Source: Moorella humiferrea
Lineage (GTDB): Bacteria > Bacillota > DSM-521 > Neomoorellales > Neomoorellaceae
Reading direction: 5' to 3'
Length of the DNA stretch: 64,000 nt
NCBI RefSeq assembly: GCF_039233145.1
Contig: NZ_CP136419.1
Coordinates: 1 to 64,000, forward strand
The notes under the pieces are model-generated. The model had not been told where the DNA came from. It saw nothing but the letters and a program-made list of their open reading frames with translations, and did no database searches. The position numbers were made by a program, and so were the translations under genes. Shown here piece by piece: positions 32,762 to 64,000 of the stretch; position 1 is the stretch's first letter, and the number at the start of each line of letters is the position of its first letter.

Positions 32762-32852
32762 GAAAACCGCAAAAGGCGAACCTGACCGAAAGGCAGGGGC
32801 GCAAAGCCACGGGCCTAAAACCTTAACAGGTCATGGCAGCCGGGTTGCCGGG
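32762..32852 (+). ncRNA. c-di-GMP-I (GEMM-I) riboswitch 1
   Basis: The aptamer hallmarks are present: AAAGGCGAACC, the CCGAAAGG tetraloop, GGGGCGCAAAGCCACGGGCC, CTAAAACC and GGCAGCCGGGTTGCC. Its segment CCGGGTTGCC (32840-32849) can pair with GGCAACTCCGG (32883-32893), the 5' arm of the downstream terminator. With ligand bound, the terminator would form, so an OFF switch is predicted for the secreted-protein gene at 32945. Confidence 0.93.
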
Positions 32853-58069: not shown

Positions 58070-58497
58070 GTGACCATCGAGCAGATCATCAAGCTCCTCA
58101 ACCTGGACCTGTCCTGGGAATATGCAGCCATGATCCAGTATATCCAGCACGCCAGCATGCTTACCGCTCCCCAGTATGTGGCCATTATTGATGAAGGGCT
58201 TCAGCATGCCCGGGATGAACACGAACATGCCGTAAAGCTGAGTGACAAAATCCAGTAACTTGGCGGCATCCCGACGGTCCAGGTGCAGGAAATCAAAATC
58301 TCCCTCAATGACGTCGAAATGTTGCGCCAGGACTGGGGGTCGAGTATGACGCCCCGAACCGTTAACTGCAGCGTATTGAACAACTGGAAGCCTTAAAATT
58401 GTACGACGTCGCCCAGGTCATCAGGAAAATTGCCGTAGTGGAGCAGGAACATATTCTTGACCTGGAGAAGGCCCTGGGCACTCAGAAGGTAAGATAA
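58070..58497 (+). pseudogene. Decayed ferritin-like protein gene
   Basis: The 5' part reads MTIEQIIKLLNLDLSWEYAA and HARDEHEHAVKLSDKIQ, a ferritin-like four-helix iron protein start with EHEH ligands, then stops at TAA 58256-58258, where the following LGGIPTVQVQEIKISL continues in the same frame. Near 58335 the frame shifts, and a second TAA lies near 58366. The remaining half, QRIEQLEALKLYDVAQVIRK and VVEQEHILDLEKALG, is clear in the other frame to 58497. Three lesions make it a pseudogene; sequencing error is unlikely to explain all. It lies 44 bases after fixX. Confidence 0.82.
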
Positions 58498-58919
58498 CTA
58501 GCAATTTGCGGCAGGGGTAAATTGACATTACTTTTTCCTAAGAGAAGGAATTTGTTGAGCGAGGTCGAATAAAAAATATTATAGCAACTGATTGGAGGAT
58601 AATTTCTGTGCTGGCAAAGTGTATAACAGAAATTAACATAAAAAACAAAAATAGCCAATGGGGGGGGGGGGGGGGGGATTATATGCCTTGATTGTAAATA
58701 TTTGGAAAAAGATCTCCCCTCTATTAGCCCCCTTAAAATTATTGCCAATAACATTCCTTCCAACCTCTCCACTGTTACCTTCCATAACACCTCCAGGAAC
58801 GAAAATTTCCATGTAATTTTTTGGGAGAAATATCCGGGGGTGATTGGACTACCGTCACCGTTCCTTCTCCCTCGCTCCCAGGGTTCCCTAAGAGATATCT
58901 ATCTCTTAAAGCAAATAAA
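58498..58919. other. AT-rich 422-base gap with an 18-G tract
   Basis: This stretch holds no supported gene. It contains an 18-base run of G (58660-58677), an inverted repeat AAGAGATA-TC-TATCTCTT (58890-58907), and a short frame from GTG 58608 (with GGAGG before it) that passes through the G-run and stops at 58691. A change of the run to 16 or 19 would extend that frame to about 58816. The encoded peptide resembles no family I know. Confidence 0.6.
58660..58677. repeat. Homopolymer tract of 18 G
   Basis: Eighteen consecutive G in an otherwise AT-rich region. Such tracts slip during replication and are hard to sequence, so the length may vary or be an assembly artefact. Confidence 0.95.
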
Positions 58920-59015
58920 TTAAAGTGTTTAAGGGCAAACCACTCGAAAGGGTGGGACGCAAAGCCATGGGTCTGTAGCCACTATGTTGGTATGACTGCC
59001 AGGCTGCCACTTTAA
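58920..59015 (+). ncRNA. c-di-GMP-I (GEMM-I) riboswitch 2
   Basis: P1 is TTAAAGTG (58920-58927) paired with CACTTTAA (59008-59015). Inside are AGGGCAAACC, the CTCGAAAGGG tetraloop, GGGACGCAAAGCCATGGGTC and the second-arm AGGCTGCC. The segment AGGCTGCC (59001-59008) can pair with GGCAGCC (59058-59064), the 5' arm of the terminator just upstream of the HD-GYP gene. Ligand binding should favour the terminator, so c-di-GMP is predicted to turn the downstream genes off. Confidence 0.9.
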
Positions 59016-59053
59016 AGTCGGTTTTTAATTTTTCCTTAACTTTTAAAGGGTTT

Positions 59054-59092
59054 AAAGGGCAGCCAGGCAAATTGCTCGTGGCTGCCTTTGCT
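59054..59092 (+). terminator. Expression-platform terminator of riboswitch 2
   Basis: GGCAGCCA (59058-59065) pairs with TGGCTGCC (59079-59086), with AAAG/CTTT extension and TTTGCTATTTC after. The 5' arm has the alternative partner AGGCTGCC in the aptamer. Confidence 0.85.
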
Positions 59093-59126
59093 ATTTCTAG
59101 ATGGAAGGAAGGCGGGGGGCGGGTTT

Positions 59127-59906
59127 ATGCAAAGGGATATGGTTACCAAAATTTTACTAGAGATTCGCCGGTACTGGCCGGCCCTGTACTTACACTCAGC
59201 TGCGGTGGCCAACTTTGCCTTAAGGATAGCCATGGAGCTGGGAATAGAAGCCCGTCATTGCCAGGACGTGTTAACGGGTGCCCTCTTGCATGATGCCGGC
59301 AAAATGCATGTAAGTTTGGAGATATTGACGAAACCGGGGCCACTGACAGAGGCAGAATGGGGGCAGATGAAAAAGCATACCGACTATGGGGCCGACTGGG
59401 TGGAACAAAGAGGGGGCAACGATGAGGTGGTAGCAGTTATTCGCTACCATCATGAATGGTGGAATGGAAACGGTTATGCCGGCCTTAAATATGAACAGAT
59501 CCCCCTGCTGGCCAGGATAGTAACCATCGCCGACGCTTTGGATGCCATGACGGCGTCGCGCCCATATCGTAAGGCGATTGCAATTAGTGAAGCCCTGATG
59601 GAAATACATAGCGGGAAAGGATTGCAATTTGACCCGGACATATTAACCGTCTTAAGGCAAAAGGCCACCTACGAACCGGCAACCTACCAGGAACCCCGCA
59701 CCCTTGCCAGGCAAATCGAAGTAGAAAAAGAATGGCTCGCGAGGTTAATTAAGATTTACGGCGATCTTACCCATCCTTTAATAATTGCCCAAAGTCACTG
59801 GTTGGACAAGTTGGTGTTAAGCATTTATAAGTTACAAGAAGGGAAAAGAAAGGAAAAACCTCTCTTTATGGGAGAAAGAGAATTTTTAAACCTGACTAAA
59901 AACTAG
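59127..59906 (+). CDS. HD-GYP-type domain protein (probable c-di-GMP phosphodiesterase)
   Basis: The 259-residue protein has an HD domain with LLHDAGKMH, KKHTDYG, the metal-binding HHEWWNGNGY and ADALDAMTASRPYR, all expected HD-GYP metal ligands. The GYP part is altered: GYAGLK, one residue shorter than the usual GYPxGLK, so activity on c-di-GMP may be changed. No sensor or receiver domain precedes it. A c-di-GMP riboswitch controls it, which would give negative feedback or a switch. ATG 59127 follows GGCGGGGGGCGGG; the frame is open from 59088 (TTG). Confidence 0.88.
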   Translation: MQRDMVTKILLEIRRYWPALYLHSAAVANFALRIAMELGIEARHCQDVLTGALLHDAGKMHVSLEILTKPGPLTEAEWGQMKKHTDYGADWVEQRGGNDEVVAVIRYHHEWWNGNGYAGLKYEQIPLLARIVTIADALDAMTASRPYRKAIAISEALMEIHSGKGLQFDPDILTVLRQKATYEPATYQEPRTLARQIEVEKEWLARLIKIYGDLTHPLIIAQSHWLDKLVLSIYKLQEGKRKEKPLFMGEREFLNLTKN

Positions 59907-59926
59907 AGCAGTGGAGGGGGGCAGGT

Positions 59927-61192
59927 GTGCAGGAGTGTAGCCAGTGTACCCGCAAGACCCCAAATCGTTCTTGCGTCGATTGCGATTATTTCATGAGTCC
60001 CGGCCCTTTACGCCGGAAGCCACCGGTGCCCATAGGCATTAGCCTGGTTGCCGCCGATGGTAAACGTTATGCTGGCCGTATCCTCGTATTGAATACCATG
60101 GAACTGGGCCTGGAAACCCAAGCTCCCGTTCCCGGTCAATATCGAATTTATTTACAGCAGCATCTCAGCCTGGATGTTGCAGGGGTACCCACCAGGGGCA
60201 AGGGCAACATCCACCTTTTTGACATTTTAGCTGTTTACCGGGGTGAGGAAACAGCCAGCCGCCTGGGTAATGAAGAATACCGTTTGCTGACGGATAGCAC
60301 CGGGGACTTCATTGAGCAAGTATCCCAATTAGTTCCCGCCCATTTACAGGAGCTGGTTAAAGAACGACTGCGTGCCGAGTTAGAAAGCTCGGAGATTTTT
60401 AACGCCATGCGGTTGGGCAAGGTGATGCGTTACGAAAAGGGGCGGTTTCGCCATCTGACAGGACAGGCTGACCTGGAACTGCCCCTGCCGGCAATAGAAA
60501 ATTTAATGCGCCAGGCAATAGACCGGGGAACCCATTGCCGGGAAGTAATAGTAAGTGAAGACGGTAAAAGGATTTATGACCTGCACGGGATACCCCTTGA
60601 CTCCCGGGCAGGGGGCCTGGTGGCCTTTGATCTTACCGAAATTATTGAAAAGGAAAGGCAGATGCGCCGCCAGGAGATGGTGGCCTACCGGGAAGCCGTG
60701 GCTGCCGTCACCAATGGGCGCCTGCAGCTTTTGACTTCAGAAGAAATGGTAGCTGTATTATCCCAGGGGAAGGAACTGGCAAGGGGAGTAGTTAACAAGG
60801 CTGCTGACATAGCTTTGGCTCGCAACAAGTTATGCAGTCTGTTACCCGCGGCTTTTAGCGCCCGTGCGCACGGCATGGCTTTATCTTTAACGGAGGCTTT
60901 GACCAATACCTTAAAACATGCTACGGGTGGTGAATGGGTGGTCCGGCAGACGGATGCGACCATCCGGATAATTATTCAAGACCAGGGCCAGGGAATTAAG
61001 ATAAAAGATTTACCCAAAGCGGCTTTAATGCGACATTACTCCACCCAAAATTCTCTTGGTTGCGGGTTTACTTTAATGCTTTATTATGCTGATAAAGTTT
61101 ATCTAACTACCGGTTCCAGGGGAACCACCCTGGTTCTGGATTTCCATCAATCAGCAGGTGAAGATAAAGAAATCTGTTCTCCAGCTTCTTAA
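59927..61192 (+). CDS. Partner-switching ATPase/kinase with Cys4 and PilZ-like N-terminus
   Basis: The 421-residue protein has an N-terminal four-cysteine motif (C4, C7, C16, C19; a possible zinc ribbon), a region about 35-110 resembling a PilZ domain (RYAGRILVLNTMELGLE, weak), a PAS-like middle (about 150-250) and a C-terminal HATPase domain (N box SLTEALTNTLKH, G1 DQGQGI) of the RsbW/RsbT type. Such ATPases phosphorylate STAS antagonists; two STAS proteins and a PP2C phosphatase follow directly. If the N-terminus binds c-di-GMP, this links signal to the module. That part is inference. Confidence 0.75.
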   Translation: MQECSQCTRKTPNRSCVDCDYFMSPGPLRRKPPVPIGISLVAADGKRYAGRILVLNTMELGLETQAPVPGQYRIYLQQHLSLDVAGVPTRGKGNIHLFDILAVYRGEETASRLGNEEYRLLTDSTGDFIEQVSQLVPAHLQELVKERLRAELESSEIFNAMRLGKVMRYEKGRFRHLTGQADLELPLPAIENLMRQAIDRGTHCREVIVSEDGKRIYDLHGIPLDSRAGGLVAFDLTEIIEKERQMRRQEMVAYREAVAAVTNGRLQLLTSEEMVAVLSQGKELARGVVNKAADIALARNKLCSLLPAAFSARAHGMALSLTEALTNTLKHATGGEWVVRQTDATIRIIIQDQGQGIKIKDLPKAALMRHYSTQNSLGCGFTLMLYYADKVYLTTGSRGTTLVLDFHQSAGEDKEICSPAS

Positions 61193-61217
61193 GTAAAGAA
61201 AGAGAAGGAGCGATATT

Positions 61218-61547
61218 ATGCTGGCAATCACTGTGACCAAGGGCGATAATGGGCGCTGTTTAAACCTTAAAGGGGAGTTAGACATGGAAACACTGGCCAA
61301 GCTGGAGCAAGCAGCAGAAGTGCAGGAAGGAGAGCGGCAATTGGAAATAAACCTGGCAGGGGTATCCTTTATAGATTCTACAGGTCTCAGGGGTTTATTA
61401 GAAATACAGCGCCGGTGGTCAATGAAGGGGGGTGAGGTACGGGTTATTAACCCCTGTCCGGAGATTGCCGAAGTTTTCCGGCTCGTAGGTATGGAAGAAC
61501 TTTTAGATTGTAGCGATCAGAGCAAGGTAACCGGGGGTGAATATTAA
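61218..61547 (+). CDS. STAS-domain anti-sigma factor antagonist 1
   Basis: The 109-residue protein is a single STAS domain like SpoIIAA/RsbV, with phospho-acceptor Ser54 in FIDSTGLRGLLEI. It would be phosphorylated by the preceding ATPase and dephosphorylated by the following PP2C enzyme. GAAGGAGCGA lies before the ATG. The stop abuts the next start. Confidence 0.9.
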   Translation: MLAITVTKGDNGRCLNLKGELDMETLAKLEQAAEVQEGERQLEINLAGVSFIDSTGLRGLLEIQRRWSMKGGEVRVINPCPEIAEVFRLVGMEELLDCSDQSKVTGGEY

Positions 61548-62285
61548 ATGTCCCTGGATACCGGTGGCAAGGGGAAACAAATAATACATGCCGGTATACA
61601 GGGTGCCGGGTGTAGTATTCCAGCAGACCTGGAAGGCGGCGACTTTTTTGATTTTATTCCCCTGGGTGAAGACCAACTTATTGTTGCTATCGGAGATGTA
61701 ATGGGCAAAGGTATGCGTGCCGCCGGGCAGATGAAGGAGCTTTGTACAATCTTACATGCCTGTACCAGGAAAGATCTGTCCCTATTGGAAATCATAAATC
61801 AGCTGGCTGCAATCGGAGGAAAGCGGCTGCATCGCGCCGGTTCCTTTGCCACCCTGTGCCTTATTTCTTATGAACGGCAGCATAATTGTTTAACCTGCCT
61901 CAGCGCCGGACACCCGTCTCCGGTAATATTTTCAGGCCGTAATATCCACGTACCCCGGGTAAGGGGGGTGGCCCTGGGTTTCCTGGAAGAATACCAGGGT
62001 ACTCGACCGGAACAAGTTGTCCTGTCTTGCGGCGATGTAGTTATCTTGTATACCGATGGCCTGGTAGAAGCCCGCGATGCCAATGGTCAAAATTATGGTT
62101 TAAATCGCCTTGAAGAGATAGTTGCCGCCAATACTTGCCTGGATGCAGTTGAACTCCGGGAGGTTATCTTAAATGACTTGTTTACCTTTACCGGCTGCAG
62201 GCAGCAAAGGGATGATGTAACCCTGGTAATACTTAAGAAAGACCTGGAAAGGGGGGGTGAGTGTGTTGGAGATCAAGGTAAATAA
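61548..62285 (+). CDS. PP2C-type (SpoIIE/RsbU-like) serine phosphatase
   Basis: The 245-residue phosphatase domain has GGDFFDFIPL, AIGDVMGKGMRAAGQM, LYTDGLVEARD and RQQRDDVTLVIL, the metal-binding aspartates of SpoIIE/RsbU. No sensor domain precedes it, so it is a minimal phosphatase. It reactivates STAS antagonists in partner-switching. It starts at the base after the STAS 1 stop, and its end overlaps the next gene by 29 bases. Confidence 0.92.
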   Translation: MSLDTGGKGKQIIHAGIQGAGCSIPADLEGGDFFDFIPLGEDQLIVAIGDVMGKGMRAAGQMKELCTILHACTRKDLSLLEIINQLAAIGGKRLHRAGSFATLCLISYERQHNCLTCLSAGHPSPVIFSGRNIHVPRVRGVALGFLEEYQGTRPEQVVLSCGDVVILYTDGLVEARDANGQNYGLNRLEEIVAANTCLDAVELREVILNDLFTFTGCRQQRDDVTLVILKKDLERGGECVGDQGK

Positions 62286-62586
62286 AGAAAAGGAAAAGGC
62301 CACCCTGCTGGTAGCGGGAGAATTGGACTACAGCAATGTTGCCCAGCTGCAGCAAGAGATTGCAAGGCAGGAGGCTCCCGTGGTGGAGGTAGTTCTTAAG
62401 GACCTGCAGTTTATGGATTCCTCTGGTGCCGGGATGCTTCTCAACCAGGCCAGGTTGTTGAGCCGGCAGAACCGCGTTTTAAAAATTACCCATATCCCCG
62501 CAAATATTCGCCATGACCTGGAAATAATTGGCTTTTTTCGCGTCTTAGAAACCCTTAAAGGCACCCCTCAAAGTGGAGGGGAGTGA
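62257..62586 (+). CDS. STAS-domain anti-sigma factor antagonist 2
   Basis: The 109-residue protein is a second STAS domain with DSSG (Ser55/56) in FMDSSGAGMLLNQ, as in SpoIIAA/RsbV. GTG 62257 is used, but GTG 62263 or TTG 62266 are also possible. Two antagonists for one ATPase suggest two outputs or a bistable switch. No sigma factor gene is visible in the window. Confidence 0.88.
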   Translation: MSVLEIKVNKEKEKATLLVAGELDYSNVAQLQQEIARQEAPVVEVVLKDLQFMDSSGAGMLLNQARLLSRQNRVLKITHIPANIRHDLEIIGFFRVLETLKGTPQSGGE

Positions 62587-62592
62587 TTGCAT

Positions 62593-64000
62593 GTGGAATC
62601 TTTAAAGACTGGAGCCCTTGAACAACCCGGGGAAAATGGCGTGGCACCCAGGGCGGCCGTAATAAACGGACAGCTGGTAATAAAACACCCGCCCGGAGGC
62701 CCTTATCCGGTGATCGTGCCCTGCCCGGGGTTGCGCCTAGTAGTAAACGGGGAAGAACGAAGCGAACCGACGCCTGTAAATGAGAAGGATAGGGTGGAAA
62801 TAATCGTTCTGGATGAAAGGAGGGAAGGATACTGGCAGATAAAGGTTAGTGCGGATAAACAGGAGGCACTTTTACAGGTAAAACCCTGGGTGTTAGTCCG
62901 GCGGCAAGTGCGGGACCTGCTACCGGCGCGGGTTTTATACCTGGAGGTCCTGGAGCAGGAGGAGTTCTATAAACCTTTTACTCTGGAAGATTTAACCAGA
63001 GAGATGGGGCGTCAGGGTATCAAATATGGTATCGATTGGCAGGCCTGTGCCCGGGGACTTGAAGCCTCAACCGAGGGTACCTTAATTATTGCCCGGGGGC
63101 AACCCCCCGTACCAGGTAAAGACGCCACGGTAGAATTATTTTTTACTACCCAGCAAAAGGTTCCAGTAGCAGTCGGAGAAGAAGAGACGGTGAACTTCCG
63201 GGAAAGATTTCGTTTCACCGCGGTTGAGGCCGGAATGGTCCTGGCCAGGAAACATCCGGCTGAAGTTGGGCGGCCGGGGAAGGCGGTAACGGGGGAAATA
63301 ATCGTGCCCCCCGAGCCCAGGGATATTCAAATGACAGCCGGTTCCGGCGCTGTTTTAAGCAAAGATGGTTTGGAGGTCATTGCTACCATAGCCGGCCGCC
63401 CCGTGGCAAGGGGGGTTAAAGGGCGGGTTGTTATCAGTGTGCTCCCTGCCCTCATGCACCCTGGTAATGTTGATATTACCTCGGGAAACATTTCTTTCAC
63501 CGGTGATGTAATGATTGCCGGCCAGGTTGAAGAAGGAATGAGTGTTGAGGCTGGCGGTAATATTTATATAGAGGGCGCTGTATCCAGGGCCATGGTCCGG
63601 GCCGGGGGCTTAATTGAGGTAGGCGGCAACGTTTTTTCTTCCCTGCTGGCCGCCGGGAGTACGGGGGCTTTGCAACAGAAATGCGGCGCGATACTTGCCA
63701 GGGTTGCTGCCATCCTGGAGCAATTTGTAGCCGCTGCTACCCAGCTTTTCCATCATCCTTCCTTTAAAAAGGATGACCTTAAAGGTGGTATTGGTCCCCT
63801 GGTATTATTGCTTTTAGAGAAGAAATTTCGCGAGCTTCCTGCGGCGGTAGAATTACTAAAAAAGGAAGCCTACAGCCTTCCTGCTATATCAATGAATAGT
63901 TCGACGGCATTGATAAATGAACTGGAACGTCTGGTAAGGACACCATTGGCCATCAACAGTTTAGAACAACTGGAATCAATGTTGAAAGAAATTATAACCT
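62593..64000 (+). CDS. fapA: FapA-family (DUF342) protein, 3' end outside window
   Basis: The open frame (at least 469 residues) starts GTG 62593, after GGAGGGGAG, and is cut at the window edge. It has an N-terminal domain, then the DUF342 beta-helix core: ISGN-type VDITSGNISFTGDVMIAGQVEEGM (read in part), GGNIYIEGAVSRAMV and GGLIEVGGNVFSS. FapA links to flagella or regulates polar localisation in some bacteria. As the last gene of the c-di-GMP-controlled set, it may be the output of the partner-switching module. Confidence 0.88.
   Translation, partial: MESLKTGALEQPGENGVAPRAAVINGQLVIKHPPGGPYPVIVPCPGLRLVVNGEERSEPTPVNEKDRVEIIVLDERREGYWQIKVSADKQEALLQVKPWVLVRRQVRDLLPARVLYLEVLEQEEFYKPFTLEDLTREMGRQGIKYGIDWQACARGLEASTEGTLIIARGQPPVPGKDATVELFFTTQQKVPVAVGEEETVNFRERFRFTAVEAGMVLARKHPAEVGRPGKAVTGEIIVPPEPRDIQMTAGSGAVLSKDGLEVIATIAGRPVARGVKGRVVISVLPALMHPGNVDITSGNISFTGDVMIAGQVEEGMSVEAGGNIYIEGAVSRAMVRAGGLIEVGGNVFSSLLAAGSTGALQQKCGAILARVAAILEQFVAAATQLFHHPSFKKDDLKGGIGPLVLLLLEKKFRELPAAVELLKKEAYSLPAISMNSSTALINELERLVRTPLAINSLEQLESMLKEIIT

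Follow-up and report, generated by a model that had tools for sequence, protein, structure and literature searches.

The first 64 kb of the single-contig, 2.67-Mb genome of Moorella humiferrea (NZ_CP136419.1; hereafter the window) end in a run of genes on one strand that encode, in order, an HD-GYP protein, a switch kinase, a STAS antagonist, a PP2C-type phosphatase, a second STAS antagonist and FapA, all of them behind a riboswitch for cyclic diguanosine monophosphate (c-di-GMP). We propose, with a probability of about 0.6, that the operon is conserved among spore-forming Firmicutes, that a sigma-H-type promoter drives it and a c-di-GMP-I riboswitch of the OFF type gates it, and that it encodes a partner-switching module which acts on or together with FapA. 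The first gene, in which HD-GYP and Spo0E-like domains are fused, would add feedback and a link to sporulation. A preliminary description of the locus had listed the riboswitch, its terminator and the six gene products, and these were confirmed by covariance score, folding and Pfam matches. The single direction with overlaps or short gaps also held, with intergenic spacings of +20, +25, 0, -29 and 0 nucleotides, from which co-transcription of the genes is inferred. The gene set was right, and the bounds given for it were too narrow: the leader begins before position 58920, with a promoter motif at 58546, and the window ends within FapA.

The riboswitch and the conserved cluster

The aptamer lies on the plus strand at 58925-59012; the match to RF01051 (58924-59011) scores 75.3 bits, where the gathering score is 35. 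At the same site, cmscan also assigns the label of the c-di-GMP-I-GGC variant (RF03167, 65.5 bits with a cut-off of 59). Despite this passing score, the hallmark of the variant, a G replacing A in the core GACGC(G)AAGCC, is missing. A GGC variant with altered ligand was ruled out, as the core reads GACGCAAAGCC against the RF03167 consensus GACGCGAAGCC; at the diagnostic base the aptamer is therefore of the ordinary c-di-GMP-I type.

Downstream on the same strand is an intrinsic terminator hairpin (59054-59089) with the tail TTTGCTATTT and with equivalents in most relatives; the terminator region 59050-59105 has a folding energy of -23.2 kcal/mol. The 5' arm of this hairpin can pair alternatively with an antiterminator strand at 58997-59016 on the plus strand, which overlaps the 3' side of the aptamer and pairs with 59051-59069, and pairing of equal quality was found for 0 of 300 shuffled arms. 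Terminator and antiterminator are mutually exclusive in the computed folds. Because the aptamer itself uses the antiterminator strand, binding of the ligand should favour termination, and the riboswitch, on this modelling, should be of the OFF type. This fits the earlier suggestion that high c-di-GMP stops transcription. A terminator-like hairpin could be placed 3' of the aptamer in the leaders of 23 of 24 relatives, and its 5' arm mostly pairs with the 3' strand of the aptamer. When 19 leaders were put to the shuffle test, no more than 3 of the 300 shuffled arms paired equally well in 13 of them, such that the natural arm there beat at least 99%. The result was weak for three loci (L040, L044 and L050; loci and genomes carry our own L and G numbers).

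A search of other genomes for the same gene set, which had been proposed as a check, gave 24 clusters for comparison with the order kinase-STAS-PP2C-STAS-FapA. Besides the window, these come from ten genomes of the Moorella family and from Desulfofundulus, Desulfallas, Desulfoscipio, Thermosediminibacter and further Clostridia, and single genes are interrupted in a few of them. A c-di-GMP-I riboswitch is found in front in 21 of the 23 clusters that could be judged, the contig of L058 being too short for this purpose. On the other side of the balance stand two clusters without a riboswitch (L046 and L060) and one locus, L045, that has the HD-GYP gene and no riboswitch.

The genome holds a total of 11 c-di-GMP-I riboswitches (RF01051), two of which are inside the window, at 32765 and 58924. 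The former (32765-32852, 79.6 bits) precedes an open reading frame for a secreted-looking protein, which we take, judging by eye, to contain copper-amine-oxidase-like repeats. Tandem pairs of c-di-GMP riboswitches before one operon or gene were observed in L064 (9536 and 9767), L069 (996 and 1232) and G000 (1126330 and 1126814).

Partner switching with FapA as constant neighbour

The switch kinase (421 residues; 59927-61192, plus strand) was identified by a Pfam match to HATPase_c_2 (3.8e-7), a predicted structure and fold matches. The structure was predicted from 13 sequences, with a mean predicted local distance difference test score of 75.7, and the architecture consists of four cysteines, a PilZ-like barrel (residues 27-123), a PAS-like region (156-235) and an ATPase domain of the SpoIIAB/RsbW type (281-411). 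The ATPase domain matches SpoIIAB with a Z score of 15.7 and a root-mean-square deviation (rmsd) of 2.5 over 127 aligned residues; RsbW was also matched, and E323, N327, G354, G356, G378 and G380 are kept in all 13 relatives. The Cys4/PilZ-like N-terminus noted previously stands as a fold, with four cysteines invariant in the 13 relatives and a fold-only match of the barrel to the PilZ domain of CesA (Z 9.9, rmsd 2.8, 88 aligned). Binding of c-di-GMP by the barrel is not predicted, because the PilZ motifs are degenerate. In place of RxxxR and (D/N)xSxxG the kinase has LRRKPP and NTMELG, the third position of the latter motif is M, R, T or I in relatives, and PilZ is not listed among the Pfam matches, so that canonical PilZ binding was rejected.

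Three further plus-strand genes complete the module. The first STAS antagonist carries a DSTG motif (61218-61547; Pfam STAS_2, 3.9e-14, and alignment), the PP2C/SpoIIE-type phosphatase follows at 61548-62285 (Pfam SpoIIE, 1.2e-40), and the second STAS antagonist has a DSSG motif (62257-62586; Pfam STAS, 3.9e-12, and alignment). Across relatives, DS(T/S)G is retained in the two STAS proteins, as are the Asp motifs of the phosphatase (GGD, GDVMGKG, YTDGL and RDD). Thus, by Pfam, alignment and fold, a complete partner-switching set of GHKL switch kinase, DS(T/S)G STAS proteins and PP2C phosphatase is present, in agreement with what had been read from the sequence before.

FapA (DUF342, 604 residues) occupies the plus strand from 62587 to the window end at 64000 and continues to genome position 64401; both the FapA_N domain (1.5e-39) and the FapA beta-solenoid domain (1.9e-22) are detected. 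In every cluster whose sequence extends far enough it lies beside the kinase/STAS/PP2C module, and it adjoins STAS/PP2C genes in distant arrangements too (L049, L052, L072, L073, L075, L215 and L231). No sigma factor gene was seen within the operon. Because FapA is the constant neighbour and the operon shows no such gene, FapA is probably bound by one of the STAS proteins. A sample of loci elsewhere tells against this role, as FapA was beside partner-switching genes in just 2 of 19, and FapA as an obligate neighbour of partner switching is ruled out by this count. A possible but less likely explanation is that the module controls an alternative sigma factor, like RsbVW or SpoIIAA/AB, and that FapA is merely co-regulated. 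The closest fold to the ATPase domain is indeed that of an anti-sigma factor, SpoIIAB, at the Z score of 15.7 given above; yet the operon lacks a visible sigma factor gene, and co-regulation alone is harder to reconcile with the persistence of FapA beside the module and beside STAS/PP2C genes in the distant arrangements.

Several other observations concern these genes. In Desulfallas (L063, 14856-20077) a second c-di-GMP riboswitch followed by STAS, kinase and PP2C genes comes directly after this operon; judged by its gene content, this is a repeated pairing of riboswitch and partner switching. A second FapA paralogue is located in G000 at 825893-826381 (L214), between genes for Fur-like and CRP-like regulators; a flagellar-operon copy was considered and rejected, since the neighbours do not resemble flagellar genes. 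The gene 3' of the operon's own FapA begins 123 nucleotides after its end and presumably encodes a 3-hydroxyacyl-CoA dehydrogenase-like protein, as judged by eye.

An optional first gene with a Spo0E-like tail

The first gene of the operon (59127-59906, plus strand) encodes a protein of 259 residues with a Pfam HD_5 match (PF13487, 6.9e-27). Its fold matches PDB entries 9rbz, 4mcw and 4r8z, all of them HD-GYP structures, with Z scores of 18.5-19.0. The alignment to 9rbz, whose HD-GYP domain was solved with c-di-GMP bound, has a Z score of 19.0 and an rmsd of 3.2 over 194 residues. H23, H55, D56, K59, H84, H108, H109 and D136 are kept in 12 of 12 relatives, the metal-ligand positions being invariant, and the protein probably lowers c-di-GMP. 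There are features that count against such an activity: the GYP motif is GYA here, one residue is absent after the motif and position 19 is not Glu, which make substrate and activity uncertain. The literal GYP motif is likewise replaced among the 12 relatives, by GYA, GYV, GYE, GYY or GYL.

The HD-GYP domain had been recognized in the preliminary description, and a second, C-terminal domain had been overlooked. Spo0E-type aspartyl phosphatases (PF09388) are normally small free proteins that form a two-helix hairpin with an S-x-x-L-D motif. Residues 193-234 (59703-59828, plus strand), with the motif AQSHWLDKL, match this family at 23.6 bits for a gathering score of 23, and this tail is the only PF09388 match over the Pfam cut-off in the genome. 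Nine of 12 relatives match PF09388 (E 0.01), and 11 of 12 keep the Ser and Asp of the S-x-x-L-D motif. In profile-profile comparison (hhalign), residues 185-243 aligned with 18 free Spo0E-like sequences at a probability of 85% (E 6e-6), with at most 2% for control windows of 59 residues off the domain. The predicted structure has helices at 190-211 and 217-242 with high confidence, the second of which carries AQSHWLD. The tail therefore resembles Spo0E-type phosphatases in its two-helix hairpin and its motif, and differs from them in being fused to an HD-GYP domain. The assignment is weakened by the Pfam score, which is low when taken alone, by the three of 12 relatives without a match and by the one of 12 that does not have the Ser and Asp.

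The same two domains are found in another Firmicute (L108 in genome G299), where a Spo0E domain is N-terminal to a degenerate HD-GYP domain; this reversed order makes it probable that the two domains were joined on more than one occasion. Among the Moorella genomes, G003, G004 and G009 have one Spo0E match each, that of G009 being the fusion. No match was found in G001, G005 and G006, which have no intact HD-GYP gene at this place, and G010 has a separate free copy. The Spo0E-like tail suggests a link of the operon to phosphorylated Spo0A. Of similar standing to the sigma factor explanation is a tentative reading in which the HD-GYP protein acts as a sensor of c-di-GMP with weak catalytic activity and its C-terminal hairpin just dimerises, with no link to Spo0A. 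GYA in place of GYP, the missing residue, the weak Pfam score of the tail and the ligand-bound state of the best fold match, 9rbz, are all consistent with a sensor of this type. They have to be set against metal-ligand positions kept throughout the relatives, a Ser and Asp kept in all but one of them, and the independent fusion in L108.

About half of the clusters have an intact HD-GYP gene at its place between riboswitch and kinase. An internal deletion has joined the two ends of the gene in L038, it is split in L037 and L069, only remnants of the Spo0E-like tail are left in L044 and L059, and it is absent in L040, L042, L043, L047, L064 and L068. A single split gene could be a sequencing error; deletions and remnants could not. 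As the HD-GYP gene was lost repeatedly and the riboswitch kept, the riboswitch serves the kinase-STAS-PP2C-STAS-FapA module first, with feedback by the HD-GYP protein as an addition. The positive feedback suggested earlier thus retains its logic, provided that the protein cleaves c-di-GMP, and loses its place as the core of the system. It is accordingly improbable that the main role of the operon is that of a c-di-GMP toggle, with an HD-GYP phosphodiesterase and an OFF riboswitch forming the positive feedback and partner switching as the output: the OFF architecture and the kept metal ligands would suit it, but the gene is deleted, split, a remnant or absent in the 11 loci just named, all with the riboswitch kept, and the genome has about ten GGDEF and about ten HD_5 matches, so that a single HD-GYP enzyme need not dominate the c-di-GMP pool.

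The leader, the proposed circuit and related systems

Two conserved features of the leader, a promoter motif and a poly-G tract, were absent from the preliminary description. The promoter motif AGGA-N14-GTCGAAT (AGGAATTTGTTGAGCGAGGTCGAAT) is located at 58546-58570 on the plus strand. It has 13 exact copies in the genome, compared with 2 for a reversed control pattern, and it is kept in the Moorella alignment. Of 38 c-di-GMP riboswitches in the source genome and six related ones, 14 have the relaxed pattern AGGA-N14-NNCGAA(T/G) in the 700 nucleotides before them, for a chance expectation of about 0.2 by a rough simple-count estimate that treats these sites, orthologues and hence non-independent ones among them, alike. 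The 14 loci include L003, L242, L250 and L257, and four of the 14 copies are just 38-53 nucleotides before the aptamer. With their constant spacing, the AGGA and GAAT boxes look like the sigma-H consensus of Bacillus subtilis; a literature search for this consensus returned nothing. Going by the shape of the motif, the operon is probably transcribed from a sigma-H-type promoter. A single-domain response regulator lies 81 nucleotides after a further copy of the motif, and its resemblance to Spo0F was left undecided by NCBIfam.

The poly-G tract (18 G, 58660-58677, plus strand) is one of six runs of at least 12 G in 2.67 Mb, three of which are followed on their own strand, within 510 nucleotides, by a c-di-GMP riboswitch. 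G004 and G010 each have a single run of this length, which sits at this operon. Tracts of 11-19 G are found at the matching place upstream of this riboswitch in Moorella, Desulfallas, Desulfoscipio and others, with a shorter one of 7 G in L043. A leader reading frame with the Shine-Dalgarno sequence GGAGG and a GTG start (58608-58659, plus strand) runs for 17 codons into the tract, and a start codon with a ribosome-binding site is present shortly 5' of most poly-G tracts examined. Translation of the long frame from poly-G to riboswitch as a protein was rejected: the three codon positions have similar numbers of variable columns (27, 28 and 21), which leaves no coding signal after the tract. 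The tract was also considered as the spacer of a sigma-A promoter, with a -10-like TATAAT after it; there is no consistent -35 box, and AGGA-N14-GTCGAAT is better supported. The recurrent tracts are possibly a family of phase-variable leaders, and phase variation is offered as a proposal only, because the assembled run length is unreliable. Poly-G tracts of 11-23 G upstream of c-di-GMP riboswitches or genes, usually behind a start codon that has a ribosome-binding site, were also seen in L041, L050, L063, L065 and L066 and in G000 at 1126163, 1144764, 1146492 and 1842521. Further upstream, between fix-type genes and the operon leader, a ferritin-like gene is interrupted by a stop or frameshift (58070-58496 of the window).

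In the mechanism that we propose, sigma-H would start the transcript at the transition to stationary phase. At high c-di-GMP, the bound aptamer would sequester the antiterminator strand and the terminator would form; at low c-di-GMP, the antiterminator would form and read-through would allow expression of the operon. Kinase and phosphatase would set the phosphorylation of both STAS proteins, one of which would bind the kinase and the other probably FapA, and this partner-switching module, acting on FapA or together with it, would be the constant output. Where the first gene is present, as it is here and in about half of the lineages overall, the HD-GYP::Spo0E protein that it encodes would probably lower c-di-GMP and reinforce expression, and its hairpin would lower phosphorylated Spo0A, holding back sporulation in the low-c-di-GMP state. 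For Clostridioides difficile, a reduction of early sporulation by c-di-GMP has been reported, through an unidentified pathway (PMC8653836). This report is a precedent for the link only, because here low c-di-GMP would coincide with the action of Spo0E. A more speculative and rather unlikely extension is a phase-variable sigma-H circuit, in which slippage in poly-G would set translation of the leader reading frame and thereby decide, as Rho does in C. difficile, on read-through to the riboswitch; with HD-GYP::Spo0E lowering both c-di-GMP and phosphorylated Spo0A, and partner switching acting on FapA, one locus would choose between motility, attachment and sporulation.

Partner switching that is tied to c-di-GMP and has a cyclase as output is known from SiaABCD, BgrUVW and MtT-MtG. 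SiaABCD of Pseudomonas aeruginosa has a PP2C phosphatase, a kinase and a STAS-type protein, and its output is a diguanylate cyclase (PMC7647112). It shares with the present operon the connection of these proteins to c-di-GMP; here, in contrast, a riboswitch gates expression, the enzyme is of the HD-GYP type, and there are two STAS proteins and FapA. The stressosome kinase MtT with the cyclase MtG, from Moorella thermoacetica, likewise ties a partner-switching kinase to c-di-GMP in the same genus, and differs, as far as its citation in PMC7647112 goes, by the stressosome proteins and cyclase, none of which is in this operon. Phase variation combined with c-di-GMP riboswitches or phosphodiesterase genes, partly in the 5' leader, is known from the flagellar, cmr and pdcB switches of C. 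difficile (PMC7446863, PMC8844915, PMC9286219). Those rely on DNA inversion, whereas here the poly-G tract is the candidate hypermutable element. The open-access literature searched held no mention of Spo0E with HD-GYP and one incidental match for FapA with a c-di-GMP riboswitch; it contained neither the operon nor the HD-GYP::Spo0E fusion nor the poly-G leader, in line with the earlier remark that this exact combination had no description.

For the biology of these bacteria, the fusion of HD-GYP and Spo0E-like domains under a c-di-GMP riboswitch and a sigma-H-type motif is a candidate link from c-di-GMP to sporulation. FapA is a candidate for a partner-switching target that is neither a sigma factor nor a cyclase, and the conserved poly-G tract may make a c-di-GMP operon phase-variable. 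The operon could help to explain how c-di-GMP influences moving, settling and sporulating.

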